DNA of 64,000 nucleotides from Variovorax sp. EL159 (GTDB lineage: Bacteria; Pseudomonadota; Gammaproteobacteria; Burkholderiales; Burkholderiaceae_C): assembly GCF_900100965.1 (NCBI RefSeq), contig NZ_FMUJ01000002.1, forward strand, positions 617,869-681,868, given 5' to 3'. This document shows, one piece after another, positions 40,737 through 45,636 of the stretch. Position numbers and translations under genes: made by a program. Within the stretch, counting starts at the first letter, position 1, and each line of letters opens with the position of its first letter. The notes below the pieces were generated by a model. That model made no database searches and was not told where the DNA came from. It saw only the letters and a list, made by a program, of their open reading frames with translations.

Positions 40737-41453
40737 TCACTCCTCGGCGGTGGCATTCCAGAAGGCTTGCTGCACACCGTCGAGGGCTTCCAGGTCTTCG
40801 ATGACACGGTCGAGCTCCGAAGGCTCGACCGCTGTCGCATAGAGCGTTGCACCGATCTCGGTGTCGGCCGGGCCGAACGGGTGCTGGTCGACGTCGCGCA
40901 CCGGATAGTTCGCGGCCTCGAGCAACAGCAGCAGCTGGTCCATCACTTCGGGCCGCGCCGCGCGCGAGCAGATCACGCGCACCACGTACGTCGCTTCGCT
41001 CGCGCCCTCGCTGATCGGCTGGCGGTTGATGCGGTTCACCACCGGCCGCAGCAGCGTGTTGCTGGCCAGCACGAACAGCGCCGCGATCAGCGCTTCGCCG
41101 AGCAGGTCCGCGCCCGCGCAGGCACCCACCGCCGCCGACCCCCACAGCGTCGCCGCCGTGTTCAGGCCCGTGACGTTGGCGCCTTCCTTCATGATCGCGC
41201 CCGCGCCCAGGAAGCCGATGCCCGACACCACGTAGGCCACCACGCGCACCGCACCGCCGCTGCCGTCCAGCCGCTGGGCCAGGTCGACGAACACCGCGGC
41301 ACCCACGGCCACCAGCGTGTTGGTGCGCAAGCCCGCCGTGCGCTGCCGGACCTGCCGTTCCAGCCCGATCAGCGAGCCGAGGATGAAGGCTGCCGTCACG
41401 CTGACGAAGGTGTCGAGGAGCGAGAGCAGGTTGATGTTATGGATGGCTTGCAT
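40737..41453 (-). CDS. mgtC: MgtC-family protein
   Basis: This 238-residue protein has four to five membrane helices with MgtC/SapB signatures: 'ILGSLIGLERQVRQRTAGLRTNTLVAVGAAVFV', and 'GIGFLGAGAIMKEG' followed by 'GLNTAATLWGSAAVGA' (quoted in pieces). A soluble ACT-like C-terminal domain of about 80 residues follows. In Salmonella MgtC limits ATP synthase and aids growth in low magnesium and in macrophages. Here it is downstream of mgtA by 87 bases on the same strand, so the two appear to be one operon under the same leader. ATG 41453 is chosen over the upstream in-frame start, since the hydrophobic segment begins near it. Confidence 0.9.
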   Translation of the reverse strand: MQAIHNINLLSLLDTFVSVTAAFILGSLIGLERQVRQRTAGLRTNTLVAVGAAVFVDLAQRLDGSGGAVRVVAYVVSGIGFLGAGAIMKEGANVTGLNTAATLWGSAAVGACAGADLLGEALIAALFVLASNTLLRPVVNRINRQPISEGASEATYVVRVICSRAARPEVMDQLLLLLEAANYPVRDVDQHPFGPADTEIGATLYATAVEPSELDRVIEDLEALDGVQQAFWNATAEE

Positions 41454-41540: not shown

Positions 41541-44306
41541 TCACTGCCACCCATACCGCCGCGCATACCAGCCCTTGACCGTCTGCGTCAGCACCGCATA
41601 GCCCACCAGCATCGCCACCAGCCACGGGAAGTACGCCAGCGGCAGCGCCTGCAGCTTGAAATAGTGTGCCAGCGGTCCCATCGGCAGCCAGATGCCCACT
41701 GCCGCAATGGCGGCGCCCATGGCCAGCAACGGCCACGAGGCGCGGCTTTGCAGGAAGGGAATCCTGCGCGTGCGGATCAGGTGCACGATCAGCGTCTGCG
41801 ACAGCAGGCCTTCGATGAACCAGCCCGACTGGAACAGCGTCTGATGGTCCACCGAATTCGCGGCGAACACGAACCACAGTACCGTGAAGGTCAGGATGTC
41901 GAACACCGAGCTCAGCGGCCCGAAGAACACCATGAAGCGGCCCAGGTCCGCCGGGTTCCAGCGCTGCGGGGTCTTCAAAAATTCCTCGTCCACGTTGTCG
42001 AACGGAATCGCGATCTGCGACACGTCGTACAGCAGGTTCTGCACCAGCAGATGCAGCGGCAGCATCGGCAGGAAGGGCAGGAAGGCGCTCGCCACCAGCA
42101 CCGAGAACACGTTGCCGAAGTTCGAGCTGGCGGTGATCTTGATGTACTTGAGCATGTTGGCGAAGGTGCGGCGGCCCTCGATCACGCCTTGCTCCAGCAC
42201 CATCAGGCTCTTTTCGAGCAGGATGATGTCGGCCGATTCCTTGGCCACGTCCACCGCGCTGTCCACCGAGATGCCGATGTCGGCCGCGCGCAGCGCCGGC
42301 GCGTCGTTGATGCCGTCGCCCATGAAGCCGACCACGTGGCCGTTGGCATGCAGCGCATGCACGATGCGCTCCTTGTGCGCGGGCGTGAGCTTGGCGAACA
42401 CCTGGTGCTGTTCGACCCGCACCCGCAGCTCGGCGTCACTCATCTCCTCGATCTCGTGGCCGAGCACCATGCGGCCGGCCTCCAGGCCCACATCGGCGCA
42501 GACCTTGCGCGTGACCAGTTCGTTGTCGCCGGTCAGCACCTTCACGGCCACGCCATGTTCGGCCAGGGCGCGCAGCGCGGGCGCGGTCGATTCCTTCGGC
42601 GGATCGAGAAAAGCCACGTAGCCCAGCAGCGTGAGCCCCGATTCATCGGCCACGCCATAGGCCGGCTTCTGTGCGTTGAGCGCCAGTGCGCGGCTGGCCA
42701 CGGCCACCACGCGAAGGCCCTGGGCATTGAGCTCCGACGCCACGCGATGGATGCGCGCGAGCACATCGGCATCGAGCGCCAGCACCTCGGCGCCACGCTC
42801 GACCGAGGTGCACACCGACAGGATCTCTTCCAGCGCACCCTTGCAGATCAGCAGGTGCTGGCTGCCGCCGTTGGCCACCACCACCGACATGCGGCGGCGT
42901 GAGAAGTCGAAGGGCACTTCGTCGATCTTGCGGTAGGCGGTCTGCAGCCGCGTCTCGAGCTGCATCTCGGCATGGCTCAGCACCGCCTTGTCGAGCAGGT
43001 TCTTCAGGCCCGTCTGGTGAAAGCTGTTGAGGTAGGCCAGCTGCAGCACGTGGTCCGAGGCCTCGCCCCAGGCGTTGGTGTGGCGTTCGAGCACGATGCG
43101 GTCCTGCGTGAGCGTGCCGGTCTTGTCGGTGCACAGCACGTCCATGGCGCCGAAGTTGTGGATGGCTTCGAGCCGCTTCACGATCACCTTCTGGCGCGAC
43201 ATCACGACCGCGCCCTTGGCCAGCGTGGCGGTCACGATCATCGGTAGCATCTCGGGCGTGAGGCCGACCGCGATCGACAGCGCGAACAGCGCGGCCTCCC
43301 ACCAGTCGCCCTTGGCCACGCCGTTGATCACCAGCACCAGTGGCGCCATCACCAGCATGAAGCGGATCAGCACCCAGCTCACGCGGTTGATGCCCGCCTG
43401 GAACGCGCTGGTGCCACGGTCGGTGGCCGTCACGCGCTGCGCCAGCGCGCCGAAGAAGGTGCGGTCGCCCGTGTGCACGATGAGCGCGGTGGCCGTGCCG
43501 CTGATCACGTTGGTGCCCATGAAGAGCAGGTTCTCGCGTTCGAGCACACCGGCCGCGTGCCCATTGCGGTCGACGACGAACTTCTCGACCGGCATGGCTT
43601 CGCCCGTCAGCGCGGATTGGCTGATGAACAAGTCCTTGGCGGTGATCAGGCGGCAGTCGGCGGGGATCATGTCGCCGGCCGACAGTGCGATCACTTCGCC
43701 CGGCACCAGGTCGCGCATCGGCACCTCGACCCGCACCGTGCCGGCGTGCGTGGTGTCGAAGCCTTCGTCGCCGGCCGGGCCAGCCTTGAATCCCGGCGCG
43801 GGCCGCAGCACCGTGGCGGTGTTGCTCACCATCGCCTTGAGCCGGTCGGCCGCCTTGTTGGAGCGCGATTCCTGCAGAAAGCGCAGCACCGTCGACAGCA
43901 CCACCATGCTGCCGATCACCAGCGTGGCTTTCATGTCCTCGGTGGCGTACGAGATCAGCGCCAGCACCGTCAACAGCAGGTTGAACGGATTGCGGTAGCA
44001 CTGCCACAGGTGCCGCCACCATGGCAGTGGCTGCTCGTGTCGAACCTCGTTGCTGCCCAGGCGCTTGCGCAGCACCTGGGCGTGGCCTTCGCTCAGGCCG
44101 CGCGGCGAGCTGGAGAGCTTGATAAGCATCTCGCCGGCATCGGTGCGCGAGGCCGTGGCCAGGGCCTTCGCGATGTCGGGCGGCATGCTGATGGAGCCGG
44201 TGCCGGCGGGCTTCGGGCCCAGCAGCGTCTGCCAGCGCTCGAAGTGATGCAGCATGTGGCGGCTGCGCAGGAAGCTCTCGAAAAAGGACTTCAGGACGTT
44301 TTTCAT
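41541..44306 (-). CDS. mgtA: Magnesium-translocating P-type ATPase (MgtA)
   Basis: This 921-residue P3B-type ATPase has the phosphorylation motif DKTGT at Asp394, the TGE actuator motif in SALTGEAMP, the P-domain hinge 'GDGINDAPAL', and about ten membrane segments ending with a long C-terminal membrane half. The N-terminal extension begins with a basic helix. These enzymes import magnesium under limiting supply. ATG 44306 follows GAAGGAGAG at a typical distance. The ribosome binding site falls inside a predicted hairpin, and a leader ORF ends 55 bases upstream (see those entries). mgtC follows. Regulation by magnesium is expected. Confidence 0.93.
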   Translation of the reverse strand: MKNVLKSFFESFLRSRHMLHHFERWQTLLGPKPAGTGSISMPPDIAKALATASRTDAGEMLIKLSSSPRGLSEGHAQVLRKRLGSNEVRHEQPLPWWRHLWQCYRNPFNLLLTVLALISYATEDMKATLVIGSMVVLSTVLRFLQESRSNKAADRLKAMVSNTATVLRPAPGFKAGPAGDEGFDTTHAGTVRVEVPMRDLVPGEVIALSAGDMIPADCRLITAKDLFISQSALTGEAMPVEKFVVDRNGHAAGVLERENLLFMGTNVISGTATALIVHTGDRTFFGALAQRVTATDRGTSAFQAGINRVSWVLIRFMLVMAPLVLVINGVAKGDWWEAALFALSIAVGLTPEMLPMIVTATLAKGAVVMSRQKVIVKRLEAIHNFGAMDVLCTDKTGTLTQDRIVLERHTNAWGEASDHVLQLAYLNSFHQTGLKNLLDKAVLSHAEMQLETRLQTAYRKIDEVPFDFSRRRMSVVVANGGSQHLLICKGALEEILSVCTSVERGAEVLALDADVLARIHRVASELNAQGLRVVAVASRALALNAQKPAYGVADESGLTLLGYVAFLDPPKESTAPALRALAEHGVAVKVLTGDNELVTRKVCADVGLEAGRMVLGHEIEEMSDAELRVRVEQHQVFAKLTPAHKERIVHALHANGHVVGFMGDGINDAPALRAADIGISVDSAVDVAKESADIILLEKSLMVLEQGVIEGRRTFANMLKYIKITASSNFGNVFSVLVASAFLPFLPMLPLHLLVQNLLYDVSQIAIPFDNVDEEFLKTPQRWNPADLGRFMVFFGPLSSVFDILTFTVLWFVFAANSVDHQTLFQSGWFIEGLLSQTLIVHLIRTRRIPFLQSRASWPLLAMGAAIAAVGIWLPMGPLAHYFKLQALPLAYFPWLVAMLVGYAVLTQTVKGWYARRYGWQ

Positions 44307-44315
44307 TTTTCTCTC

Positions 44316-44340
44316 CTTCACGGCGGCGCAGGCCGCGAAG
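44316..44340 (-). promoter_or_regulatory. Hairpin overlapping the mgtA ribosome binding site
   Basis: Read on the minus strand, CTTC plus GCGGC pairs with GCCGC and GAAG across a CTGC loop, with a three-base bulge on the 3' side. The 3' arm (GAAG) is the first part of the GAAGGAGAG ribosome binding site of mgtA, so folding could hide it. This is by-eye folding only. Confidence 0.5.
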
Positions 44341-44350
44341 GAAAGAAAGC

Positions 44351-44371
44351 CCACGCGTCAGTCAGGCGTGG
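44351..44371 (-). terminator. Attenuator-like hairpin after the mgtA leader ORF
   Basis: CCACGC and GCGTGG form a 6-bp stem with a nine-base loop; on the minus strand the sequence GCTTTCTTTCC follows. The hairpin covers the stop codon of the 32-codon leader, so ribosomes finishing or stalling on the leader would change its folding. It resembles an intrinsic terminator or attenuator, though the T-run is interrupted. Confidence 0.5.
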
Positions 44372-44460
44372 AAGTCTCTCCGCAGCACGGCGCGCTGCAC
44401 TCTTGCAATCGATCGGAACGGCTGGGGCGCGCAAGGGCGCCAATGAGGAGCGGGGTCCAT
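44362..44460 (-). CDS. MgtL-like leader peptide upstream of mgtA (32 aa)
   Basis: This is a short ORF with a perfect AAGGAGG ribosome binding site five bases before its ATG (44460). It begins Met-Asp-Pro-Ala-Pro and has further prolines at positions 9, 12 and 14, then a basic C-terminal half. In Salmonella and E. coli, mgtA is preceded by the MgtL leader, which begins Met-Glu-Pro-Asp-Pro. There the acidic-proline run destabilises ribosomes in low magnesium and so turns on transcription into mgtA. The position (stop 55 bases before mgtA), the early acidic-proline run and the flanking hairpins fit that scheme. Homology is not claimed: the similarity could be convergent. It is too short for ordinary gene finding. 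Confidence 0.65.
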   Translation of the reverse strand: MDPAPHWRPCAPQPFRSIARVQRAVLRRDFHA

Positions 44461-44513
44461 GGGTGCCTCCTTGTCTTCTCGCGTGGTGATGGGGGGTGTC
44501 CGTGCGCCGCGCT

Positions 44514-44708
44514 TCAGCGCTGGGCGGTGCGCGCGGGCTGTTCGAGCAGCATCAGAAAGCTGCGGATGCGGCGCGTGGTCCAGAGCGCGGCGGCCTTGTC
44601 CAGCGCGCCGTCGATTTCGGGCGCGGCCGCGCGTGCCGGTGCAGGTGCCGACGGGCGAGCGACCGGCTGCTGTAACGGCTGCGGCTGACGAAGTTGAAAT
44701 TGACGCAT
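44514..44708 (-). CDS. Small proline-rich protein upstream of the mgtA leader
   Basis: This 64-residue ORF begins MRQFQLRQPQPLQQPVARP and stays Pro/Ala/Gln-rich for about 30 residues, then forms a likely amphipathic helix ('ALDKAAALWTTRRIRSFLMLLEQ'). GAAGGAG lies seven bases before the ATG at 44708. It is followed on the same strand by the 32-codon leader and mgtA. Proline-rich leader ORFs sense proline tRNA charging in front of mgtC and mtgA-type genes in Salmonella, so a second leader or a small regulator of MgtA are both possible. No homologue is recognised. Confidence 0.5.
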   Translation of the reverse strand: MRQFQLRQPQPLQQPVARPSAPAPARAAAPEIDGALDKAAALWTTRRIRSFLMLLEQPARTAQR

Positions 44709-45072
44709 GGCAAGGCTCCTTCGCAATGAAGGGCCTCGTGCATGGGCGCACGCAAGCTGACTGAAAAAGTCAGTGACGAGAACGACGGGAATCGGGAGGG
44801 GAGAACCGCTTGCCGGAATGCAAGGGGGTCACGCTGCGTGCACGGCGGCCACAGCGCGGGGAGCCTGCGCTAAAGGGCCTGGAGTGTCACGCCTGCCGAG
44901 GCACGCGTCTTGTCACTGATCCAACTGGCACTGTCCACGCACGGGGCTCCGAAATAAAGATTCCGAATTGTTGCACCGCGGCATGCGAGGCGTCAACCCT
45001 TGGGATGAAGTTCTGCGATGCAAAAAAGGTCTTGTCGCCTCTGTGTTGCGATTCGATGGTGGCCGTGGCGCA
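44709..45072. other. Probable promoter region of the magnesium operon
   Basis: About 360 bases without a recognised gene. An inverted repeat ACTGA-(5)-TCAGT lies at 44760-44774 and could be an operator or early transcript hairpin for the mgtA unit. The remainder up to the next minus-strand gene (stop at 45073) shows no convincing ORF. Confidence 0.4.
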
Positions 45073-45636
45073 TCAGGGCGATTGAGGCTTGCGCAAGCGC
45101 TGGACTGCTTCTGCTTCCTTGGCTGCTTCCTGGCGCCTGAACTCCGCGCCCGAAAGAAACTCGAGCCCGCAAACCGCCACTTTCGTTGAGCAGATCAATT
45201 TGATGTCTGCCTCTGCTTTTGCCCACCGGGCGTAGCTGCCGAACGGGTAGCGGCCCGAATCGCTCGGTCCGCCGAATCGACGTTCGACTGATGACCTGAC
45301 CACCGACTCGTCGCCGATCGGCATCCCGCGGACCTTCACGTTCTCCAGGATCCCTGCCGAGGTGATCGTGAGCTTGGCTTCGCCGCGCCCGACCCAGTCG
45401 GGCGACTTGTCCTCCGGCAGCAAGGCACGTCCGGTTTGTTTCTTGTCCTTGCCGATAGAGGGACGATCGAGCCAGCACACCGTGTTGGACGCCTTGAGGT
45501 TCGGTGCACATGCCTTGACTGCATATGGCATCTTTGCCCCAAGCGGAAGGCCGAAGATCTGGAACTGCTCCTGTGCCGTCGCCGTATTGGCGAGGCTTGT
45601 GAGCGCCAGAAGCGCGATGTGTCCTGCTACCTTCAT
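45073..45636 (-). CDS. Exported protein of unknown function
   Basis: This protein of 187 residues starts with a signal peptide 'MKVAGHIALLALTSLANTATA' (cleavage likely after ATA near residue 22), which supports ATG 45636 over the GTG four codons upstream. The mature part has 'FQIFGLPLGAKMPYAVKACA', a GRGEAKLTITSAGILENVKVRG region resembling small periplasmic domains, four cysteines, and a charged C-terminus rich in Ala, Glu and Gln. I do not recognise the family. It is divergent from the phosphatase gene at 45708 with about 70 bases between. Confidence 0.65.
   Translation of the reverse strand: MKVAGHIALLALTSLANTATAQEQFQIFGLPLGAKMPYAVKACAPNLKASNTVCWLDRPSIGKDKKQTGRALLPEDKSPDWVGRGEAKLTITSAGILENVKVRGMPIGDESVVRSSVERRFGGPSDSGRYPFGSYARWAKAEADIKLICSTKVAVCGLEFLSGAEFRRQEAAKEAEAVQRLRKPQSP

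Follow-up and report, generated by a model that had tools for sequence, protein, structure and literature searches.

The mgtA-mgtC locus

The 64,000-nucleotide stretch of DNA analysed here (the window) carries on its minus strand mgtA (41541..44306), coding for an Mg2+-translocating P-type ATPase, with mgtC (40737..41453; PF02308 and PF21770) on its 3' side. The MgtA protein scored 1350 bits against TIGR01524 (cut-off 611), and its closest matches among the best 80 loci listed were from Variovorax, with up to 95% identity. The window is accordingly assigned to Variovorax, with Burkholderiaceae as its GTDB family. Upstream of mgtA lies a short ORF, uORF2 (44460-44362, minus strand), coding for 32 amino acids (MDPAPHWRPCAPQPFRSIARVQRAVLRRDFHA*) and preceded by the Shine-Dalgarno (SD) sequence AAGGAGG (44466..44472, minus strand, assigned from the sequence). 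The distance from its stop codon to the mgtA ATG at 44306 is 55 bases. An earlier interpretation made from the letters alone (the sequence-only reading) had proposed this ORF as an MgtL-like leader controlling mgtA and mgtC, and the ORF, its SD and its position were confirmed when the minus strand was re-read.

Two further minus-strand ORFs precede uORF2. uORF0 (44870..44938; 22 aa, MDSASWISDKTRASAGVTLQAL) has a GTG start and the SD CGGAG and was recognised by its conserved start DNA, while uORF1 (44514..44708; 64 aa) has a variable N-terminus rich in Pro, Gln and Ala and the C-terminal motif W-[PST]-T-x-R-[ILV]-R. A sigma-70-like promoter, TTGACG-18-AACAAT (44967..44996, minus strand), was identified by its conservation and by a consensus scan that found one promoter where 0.1 were expected.

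Folding of the minus-strand RNA predicted a sequestor hairpin with a 17-bp stem over the mgtA SD (44308..44348), with counterparts of different sequence in other lineages. Its minimum free energy was -29.5 kcal/mol (z -4.2 against shuffles), and the mgtA SD was paired with a probability of 1.00, compared with 0.65 in shuffled sequences. The anti-SD arm of this hairpin, TCTTTCCTTCGCGGC (44332..44346, minus strand), was delimited by folding and duplex energies. Of the two hairpins named in the sequence-only reading, that at 44316-44340 is the inner part of this larger stem (44348-44308). The other, a 6-bp hairpin across the leader stop codon (44351..44371, minus strand; CCACGC/GCGTGG), belongs to the predicted centroid fold; the T-rich run that follows, however, is the anti-SD arm and does not resemble a terminator. 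An intrinsic terminator in the leader was rejected for this reason and because a consensus scan of the minus strand from 44300 to 45100 found none. No Rfam model reached its gathering score anywhere in the window, and at E<=5 the region 44300-45060 gave just two unrelated chance matches. An M-box or another Rfam leader was rejected as no covariance model matched. A further hairpin within leader codons 7-12 (GGCGC..GCGCC) was set aside as not significant, its mean z over 24 leaders being -0.71 against shuffles; it is also visible in E. coli mgtL.

Conservation of the leader ORF within Variovorax

Relatives of the window mgtA were taken from the best 80 loci listed, 25 of which are titled Variovorax. 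All 25 Variovorax loci had the leader frame with an M-[DE]-P start and an AAGGAGG SD before it, and in all of them a hairpin covered the SD of the gene behind the leader. The frame and the start codon, on whose conservation in relatives the sequence-only reading had staked its proposal beforehand, were thus both retained. The leader was immediately 5' of mgtA in 18 of these loci. In the other seven (L015, L018, L020, L021, L022, L032 and L061) a gene for an outer-membrane barrel stood between leader and mgtA, and the leader and its hairpin adjoined the barrel gene.

Pairwise codon differences were counted over the first 12 codons of 22 distinct Variovorax leader sequences. Synonymous and nonsynonymous changes amounted to 151 and 0 at codon 3 (Pro3), 125 and 0 at codon 12 (Pro12), and 80 and 21 at codon 2 (Asp2). 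Codons 8 (CGC) and 11 (GCG) were invariant, and changes at codons 4-7, 9 and 10 mostly altered the amino acid. The expected synonymous change at acidic-proline codons was therefore borne out at Asp2 and Pro3. Among 26 Variovorax leaders, window included, codon 2 was acidic in all, codon 4 encoded Ala in 19 and Asp in seven, and codon 5 encoded Ser in 14 and Pro in 12. The second acidic residue of the E. coli EPDP motif is therefore often missing, and the window copy, with Ala4, lacks it as well; the claimed likeness to the start of MgtL extends to Asp2-Pro3 but not to this residue. The length of the Variovorax leaders ranged from 31 to 38 aa, and their C-terminal sequence varied. With all 25 Variovorax loci, the synonymous codon changes and the family pattern search described below, the ORF is almost certainly a real, conserved leader.

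Codon 5 was CCT or TCT in all 26 Variovorax leaders, and CCT in 25 of 37 other leaders. In the mgtA genes of 24 Variovorax loci the same codons were rare, with CCT at 19 of 862 Pro codons and TCT at nine of 1295 Ser codons. Codon 6 was AGT in 13 of the 37 non-Variovorax leaders, and uORF0 likewise keeps AGT codons. A pause at slow codons would fit the rare codons at leader positions 5-6.

The hairpin over the SD of the first gene

Of 66 leaders, those of E. coli, L056 and L195 have gaps of more than 100 nt to the first gene and were excluded; the remaining 63 were thinned at 80% identity to 24, with an identity measure lenient to gaps that merged the distinct leaders L055, L178 and L191. The gap between leader stop and first gene was 64 nt or less (24-64 nt) in 61 of the 63 leaders; the first gene of L036 (gap 90) perhaps has a misplaced start. 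The RNA between stop and start usually forms a hairpin whose 3' arm holds the SD of the first gene. The arm sequences are lineage-specific while the pairing is kept, as in L180 (GGTTTCTC/GAGAAACC), L173 (GGGCTTCTTTC/GAAAGAAGCCC) and L009 (TTCTCCTTCGG/CCGAAGGAGAA).

The fold of this region had z below 0 in 23 of 24 lineages. The mean probability that the SD is paired was 0.77, compared with 0.55 for shuffled sequences, and exceeded 0.8 in 14 of the 24 lineages; in six (L047, L177, L186, L187, L188 and L192) it was not above the shuffles. One of the features of an MgtQ-type switch, a hairpin that masks the ribosome-binding site of the gene behind it, is thus present in the window and in most lineages. 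It was also found in all of seven leaders outside the earlier set. Control of translation by the SD hairpin is likely.

Complementarity between the leader 3' end and the anti-SD arm

The last codons of the window leader contain a segment, CGCCGTGCTGCGGAGAGAC (44374..44392, minus strand), that is complementary to the anti-SD arm and is referred to as the decoy, or antisequestor. The duplex of decoy and arm had an energy of -18.1 kcal/mol, compared with -12.1 kcal/mol for shuffles (p 0.022). When 23 lineages were compared with dinucleotide shuffles, p was below 0.05 in ten and above 0.2 in nine, with a combined Fisher p of 1.6e-10; these p values are weakened by the partial relatedness of the lineages, five being Variovorax and three of the Stenotrophomonas/Pseudoxanthomonas group. 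The leader of L188, before mgtC, had no anti-SD arm at all. In 17 of the 23 lineages the 3' border of the decoy lay 8-16 nt upstream of the last base of the stop codon.

As a generic GGAGG would suit any anti-SD arm, leaders were also combined with the arms of other lineages. On average, the duplex of a leader with its own arm was 3.75 kcal/mol better than that with a swapped one (Wilcoxon p 1.5e-4), although the rank test for single lineages gave p<0.05 in only six of 23. When 20-nt windows were scanned from -96 to +8 nt relative to the end of the stop codon, the advantage of own pairs was significant only between -36 and -4 nt and was maximal from -30 to -10, the position expected of a ribosome that completes the leader. 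For the seven leaders outside the earlier set, the decoy reached p<0.05 in three (Fisher 6e-4; L262 and L269 are related), and the other four had p values of 0.076, 0.142 and, in two cases, above 0.5. L178 and L191, which were tested apart, had no decoy.

Equilibrium folding did not separate two states. The mean probability of SD pairing was 0.75 when the leader was left free and 0.79 when its end was masked as if by a ribosome at the stop, and was 1.00 in both cases for the window. In 22 of 23 lineages the decoy duplex was less stable than the SD hairpin. Before the SD is transcribed, the arm was predicted to be paired to the ORF with a mean probability of 0.72 (0.56 in the window). An equilibrium model of the switch was therefore rejected, since the SD stays paired in both states, and the switch would have to act during transcription. 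The complementarity between leader and anti-SD arm covaries across lineages, while equilibrium folding has no preference for the open state.

Promoter and upstream ORFs

The promoter GTGCAACAAT was kept in 17 Variovorax sequences, with TTGAC in those reaching that far, and similar promoters were seen 5' of uORF0 in other loci. The start DNA of uORF0, GTGGACAGTGCCAGT, was nearly invariant across loci (17 Variovorax sequences aligned and other loci read), and its peptide follows the pattern MDSAS[WCS].. with a GTG start. The W, T, R and R of the uORF1 motif were invariant in 15 aligned sequences, which had been picked by that motif, and the length of uORF1 was 56-81 aa in 22 loci with an assigned start. 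uORF0 had no NCBIfam match, and uORF1 had neither a Pfam nor an NCBIfam match. The SD of uORF1 was more paired than in shuffles (0.81 compared with 0.65, 22 loci).

Among the 25 leader loci of the family pattern search (below), uORF0 was present in 21 and uORF1 in 17, and the three matches rejected there had neither. In a wider, redundant set the uORF1 motif occurred in 59 of 106 loci. It was found in only one of 70 mgtA upstream regions classed as leaderless, and that one (L144) does have a leader by the scan for M[DE]P[DEA][PS] ORFs. As judged by regular expressions, uORF1 was absent from the five mgtE and three RND-adaptor loci of the family set and from the Stenotrophomonas/Pseudoxanthomonas loci.

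A pattern made from the uORF0-start DNA gave 35 matches in 33 of 299 genomes, and its control gave three. Of 30 such loci that were read, 24 looked like leaders, and L231-L234, L249 and L250 were rejected as not leader-like. The genes behind the uORF0-pattern loci included mgtC (L261, L267, L269 and L274; Pfam), mgtA (L263) and, by eye, mgtE (L255). Three of the five mgtE loci have MDSDS as uORF0, so that the layout M-D-x-[AD]-x is common to uORF0 and uORF2. Judged by these sequence patterns, uORF0 and uORF1 belong to one leader with uORF2 in the family of the window and usually precede it.

Leaders outside the genus and the genes that follow

Among the best 80 loci, 20 of the Stenotrophomonas/Pseudoxanthomonas group carried leaders of the MDPDP type, whose start lay 449-787 nt upstream of the mgtA match; in one of these that was read (L038), a small ORF (2635-2934) lies between leader and mgtA. 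The enterobacterial-looking loci L055 and L056 had MEPDP/MDPDP leaders, L062 had an MDPAP start without an SD, and no leader was found at 32 of the 80 loci. The mgtL gene of E. coli MG1655 was located at L089:432-485. L047, one of the 20 but titled Bacillus subtilis, bears an mgtA locus of the Stenotrophomonas type and is probably a mislabelled or contaminated assembly.

TIGR01524 was present in 23 of 369 genomes of the class and in 106 of 399 genomes of the family. From these, 80 regions upstream of mgtA, 0.4-2.1 kb each and mostly best-scoring, were sampled (20 class and 60 family places). Short ORFs starting with M[DE]P[DEA][PS] occurred on the mgtA strand in 11 of the 80 regions and on the opposite strand in none. 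The other 69 were without a leader within about 2 kb, a range that more distant leaders escape. The second mgtA of the window genome (L091; C6:162357) is among these 69 because its leader stands farther upstream. This second leader (MDPDPSWRLRAPAHPSPPSLNPHPALPRRPRLA, GTG start, MDPDP) has its own SD hairpin, and it and a uORF0 lie about 6.6-6.9 kb upstream of the second mgtA, with a CusA/CzcA-family RND permease behind the leader. A search of the window genome with GGAG-N4-10-ATGGANCCNGMN gave three matches, one of them real, and missed the second leader because this starts with GTG. L268 has a TTG-start leader, and L262 and L269 have the variant MDPVP.

The family and wider pattern searches required Asp4-Pro5. 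In the family, GGAG-N4-10-ATGGANCCNGAYCC (M[DE]PDP) gave 28 matches in 26 of 399 genomes, compared with eight for the reversed control. Two long ORFs (L175 and L185) and L171, where no gene could be recognised, were removed, and 25 short leader-like ORFs remained. The gene behind them was mgtA in 11 cases, mgtE in five, Nramp in four, mgtC in one and an HlyD-type RND adaptor in two (Pfam); one of the remaining two leaders was followed by a small MgtE_N/FliG_M-like protein alone and the other by an outer-membrane-barrel gene alone. Thus mgtA, mgtE or mgtC stood behind 17 of the 25. For L195, mgtA follows at a distance of about 6.4 kb (G498) with an RND set in between, and this leader was provisionally counted with mgtA as part of a possible single operon. 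The other ten mgtA cases were present as gene fragments at the edge of the locus, and TIGR01524 was the best model for all ten (E 2.8e-34 or better). The genomes of two leaders with such a fragment (L177 and L181) had no TIGR01524 match at E<=1e-200. The Nramp fragments scored 88 and 85 bits against MntH models, far short of 430, and 48.8 and 53.3 bits against the general Nramp model, which is about at its cut-off (50). The proposal of an MgtL-like leader controlling mgtA and mgtC thus holds in that the leader is conserved before mgtA (and mgtC), but the leader is not specific to mgtA and is the third of three conserved upstream ORFs.

The class-wide search (369 genomes) yielded eight matches, of which L208 (Stenotrophomonas) looked real and the other seven were read as chance. 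In the order of G274 (151 genomes) there were 11 matches: seven were of the known Stenotrophomonas/Pseudoxanthomonas kind, L219 and L228 were leader-like, and L220 and L221 were considered chance matches.

Several loci showed further peculiarities. Extended acidic-Pro starts were seen in L191 (MDPDPEPEPEPEPAC, before mgtE) and L174 (MDPDPDPDPDPARR, before an RND adaptor) and are, by their sequence, natural long versions of the destabilising motif. MDPDP leaders stood before HlyD adaptors or CusA/CzcA-type RND pumps in L195/L209, L174/L210, L186/L211 and L259; in G498 (L209) and in the window genome (L259), mgtA lies farther down on the same strand as leader and RND set. If the leader does respond to low Mg2+ as presumed, an efflux-type pump would be an odd gene for it to precede. 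Small proteins of about 100-150 aa were encoded between leader and transporter in L173, L176, L177, L186 and the L038 ORF mentioned above. Those of the first four loci showed similarity to MgtE_N or FliG_M, with scores that did not exceed the Pfam cut-offs, and such proteins are possibly detached Mg2+-sensing domains. In L180, L182, L183, L197 and L170 an extra short ORF (about 25-50 codons by eye) lies between SD hairpin and Nramp or mgtA. The buried SD therefore belongs to that ORF, to which the transporter behind it may be translationally coupled.

A small outer-membrane protein family is the first gene behind the leader in L018 (2208-2969), L015, L021, L032, L172, L181, L184 and L187, comprising several mgtA operons and one mgtE operon. 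The proteins of L172, L184 and L187 had no Pfam match, and that of L018 no NCBIfam match. Structure prediction for the L018 protein gave a 12-stranded barrel with a mean pLDDT of 74.8 (barrel blocks mostly 77-89), and the top PDB matches of the model were OmpG, invasin and FapF, followed by NanC. Barrels of the L018 type may be outer-membrane Mg2+ channels.

Discussion

The reading preferred here, to which a probability of about 0.6 is given, is that uORF2 is a cis-acting leader ORF governing the translation of mgtA-mgtC, and of other transporter operons in relatives, by ribosome drop-off and by capture of the anti-SD arm by the decoy. It starts from three results obtained here: the conserved frame with its Asp2-Pro3, the SD-burying hairpin, and a leader 3' end that is complementary to the anti-SD arm in a lineage-specific manner. 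The leader ORF is presumably translated. At ample Mg2+ its strong SD would load ribosomes that read to the stop and cover the last ten codons; the anti-SD arm, left unengaged, could then bind the mgtA SD, and the operon would be off. At low Mg2+ ribosomes would drop off within the first codons, at Asp-Pro-x-Pro/Ser, and the uncovered 3' end of the leader, with its GGAG-like decoy, would capture the anti-SD arm as it is transcribed and leave the mgtA SD open. Such a switch would be kinetic and co-transcriptional. By analogy with known leaders, the transporter genes are probably switched on as ribosomes fall off in low magnesium; that Mg2+ is the signal is inferred from the genes served and from MgtL and MgtQ.

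The same leader and the same drop-off could also act on transcription, with full translation exposing a Rho loading site, drop-off hiding it and the SD hairpin being secondary. Untranslated mgtA mRNA is exposed to Rho in any case, which counts in favour of this explanation, as does the Rho-dependent termination that the available part of PMC11282234 describes as the output of MgtL. However, the conserved signal is complementarity to an arm of the SD hairpin, the short gaps behind the leader (at most 64 nt in 61 of 63) leave little room for a rut site, and the available part of PMC11552253 reports that no evidence of Rho was seen at E. coli mgtA, so that output through Rho appears unlikely. A positive coupling like that published for MgtQ (PMC8092293, in the part available), in which a ribosome at the leader start would open an early stem holding the decoy and leader translation would activate mgtA, is unlikely: the window decoy does overlap a predicted stem within the ORF (GCAGC/GCTGC), but decoys end so close to the stop codon (8-16 nt before its end in 17 of 23 lineages) that they lie under a ribosome completing the ORF.

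Slow Pro or rare codons near the start might instead report proline supply, EF-P or m1G37 methylation of tRNA-Pro, and not ribosome stability. The codons CCT/TCT at position 5 of all 26 Variovorax leaders, which are rare in Variovorax mgtA, would suit this explanation. According to the parts of the sources available, m1G37 methylation acts at CCC/CCU codons (PMC6335274) and proline limitation triggers the mgtP response of Salmonella (PMC3641672). Yet Ser replaces Pro5 in 14 of the 26 leaders while codon 2 is acidic in all of them, and sensing of proline is considered quite unlikely. It is very improbable that the conserved peptide is a trans-acting small protein, or the ORF a chance frame over conserved RNA. 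R8, A11 and P12 are conserved past the Asp-Pro start in Variovorax, as either would allow, but the length (31-38 aa in Variovorax) and the C-terminal sequence vary, codons 2, 3 and 12 change synonymously behind a strong SD, and leaders elsewhere share mainly the start.

The nearest published systems are E. coli MgtL and Salmonella MgtQ. For MgtL, the available part of PMC11282234 describes ribosome drop-off at EPDP, dependent on Glu2/Asp4, with Rho-dependent output. For MgtQ, that of PMC8092293 describes Asp2/Glu5 and alternative stem-loops that free the mgtB ribosome-binding site, and mentions an mgtQ-like ORF before Brucella mgtB. Like MgtL, the present leader is a short ORF with a strong SD before mgtA, an M-[DE]-P-[DA]-[PS] start and a proposed drop-off at acidic-Pro codons. 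The acidic-Pro-acidic-Pro start of MgtL recurs as MDPDP in relatives and in the second leader of the genome, whereas the window has MDPAP and only seven of 26 Variovorax leaders have Asp4. The enterobacterial MgtL peptide and the present leader are both short and have the start motif alone in common. The present leaders are mostly 28-39 aa long, compared with 17 aa for MgtL, and their gap to the first gene (24-64 nt in 61 of 63) compares with 140 nt in E. coli. They possess an SD-burying hairpin and a complementary segment at the leader 3' end, with translation initiation as the likely output in place of Rho-dependent termination. They also stand before mgtE, Nramp, mgtC and RND genes and, in the family of the window, are usually preceded by two more conserved ORFs.

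With MgtQ the leader shares an acidic codon 2 and, as proposed here, alternative RNA pairings by which the ribosome-binding site of a gene for an Mg2+ transporter would be masked or exposed. MgtQ, however, has 8 aa, is intergenic (mgtC-mgtB) and supplies stem 1 of its switch from the RNA of the ORF itself, whereas the present leader is longer, stands at the 5' end of an operon and has the competing segment at its own 3' end. The M-box (ykoK) is an Mg2+ leader module common to unrelated Mg2+ transporter genes; the present module differs in being built of small ORFs and having no Rfam match. The mode of action would be closest to MgtQ, sequence and position are closest to MgtL, and the sharing by unrelated transporters recalls the M-box. 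Several short ORFs also lead the Mg2+ operon mgtCBR of Salmonella (mgtM/mgtP); there, as far as the available part of PMC3641672 goes, tandem leader ORFs, one rich in proline codons and one responsive to ATP, act on transcription. Searches of the open-licence PMC literature listed no description of the present leader.

It seems rather probable that a portable leader of three ORFs (MDSAS uORF0, WxTxRIR uORF1 and M-D-P-D-P uORF2, the last together with the SD sequestor and the covarying decoy) serves bacteria of the family of the window as a general switch for low Mg2+ and is thus a counterpart of the M-box that works through translation. It would stand before genes of no fewer than four unrelated families (MgtA, MgtE, Nramp and MgtC) as well as those for RND pumps and an outer-membrane barrel, and Stenotrophomonas and Pseudoxanthomonas would have a reduced form with a single ORF. 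If this is true, the leader would be a marker for unrecognised magnesium genes, such as those for the outer-membrane barrel and the Nramp-like and RND proteins. The natural variants MDPDP, MDPAP, MDPAS and MDPVP and the long Asp/Glu-Pro runs provide material for the sequence rules of ribosome drop-off. MgtL itself would then belong to a broad class of sensors of ribosome stability that is common to unrelated magnesium transporters and extends beyond the enterobacteria.
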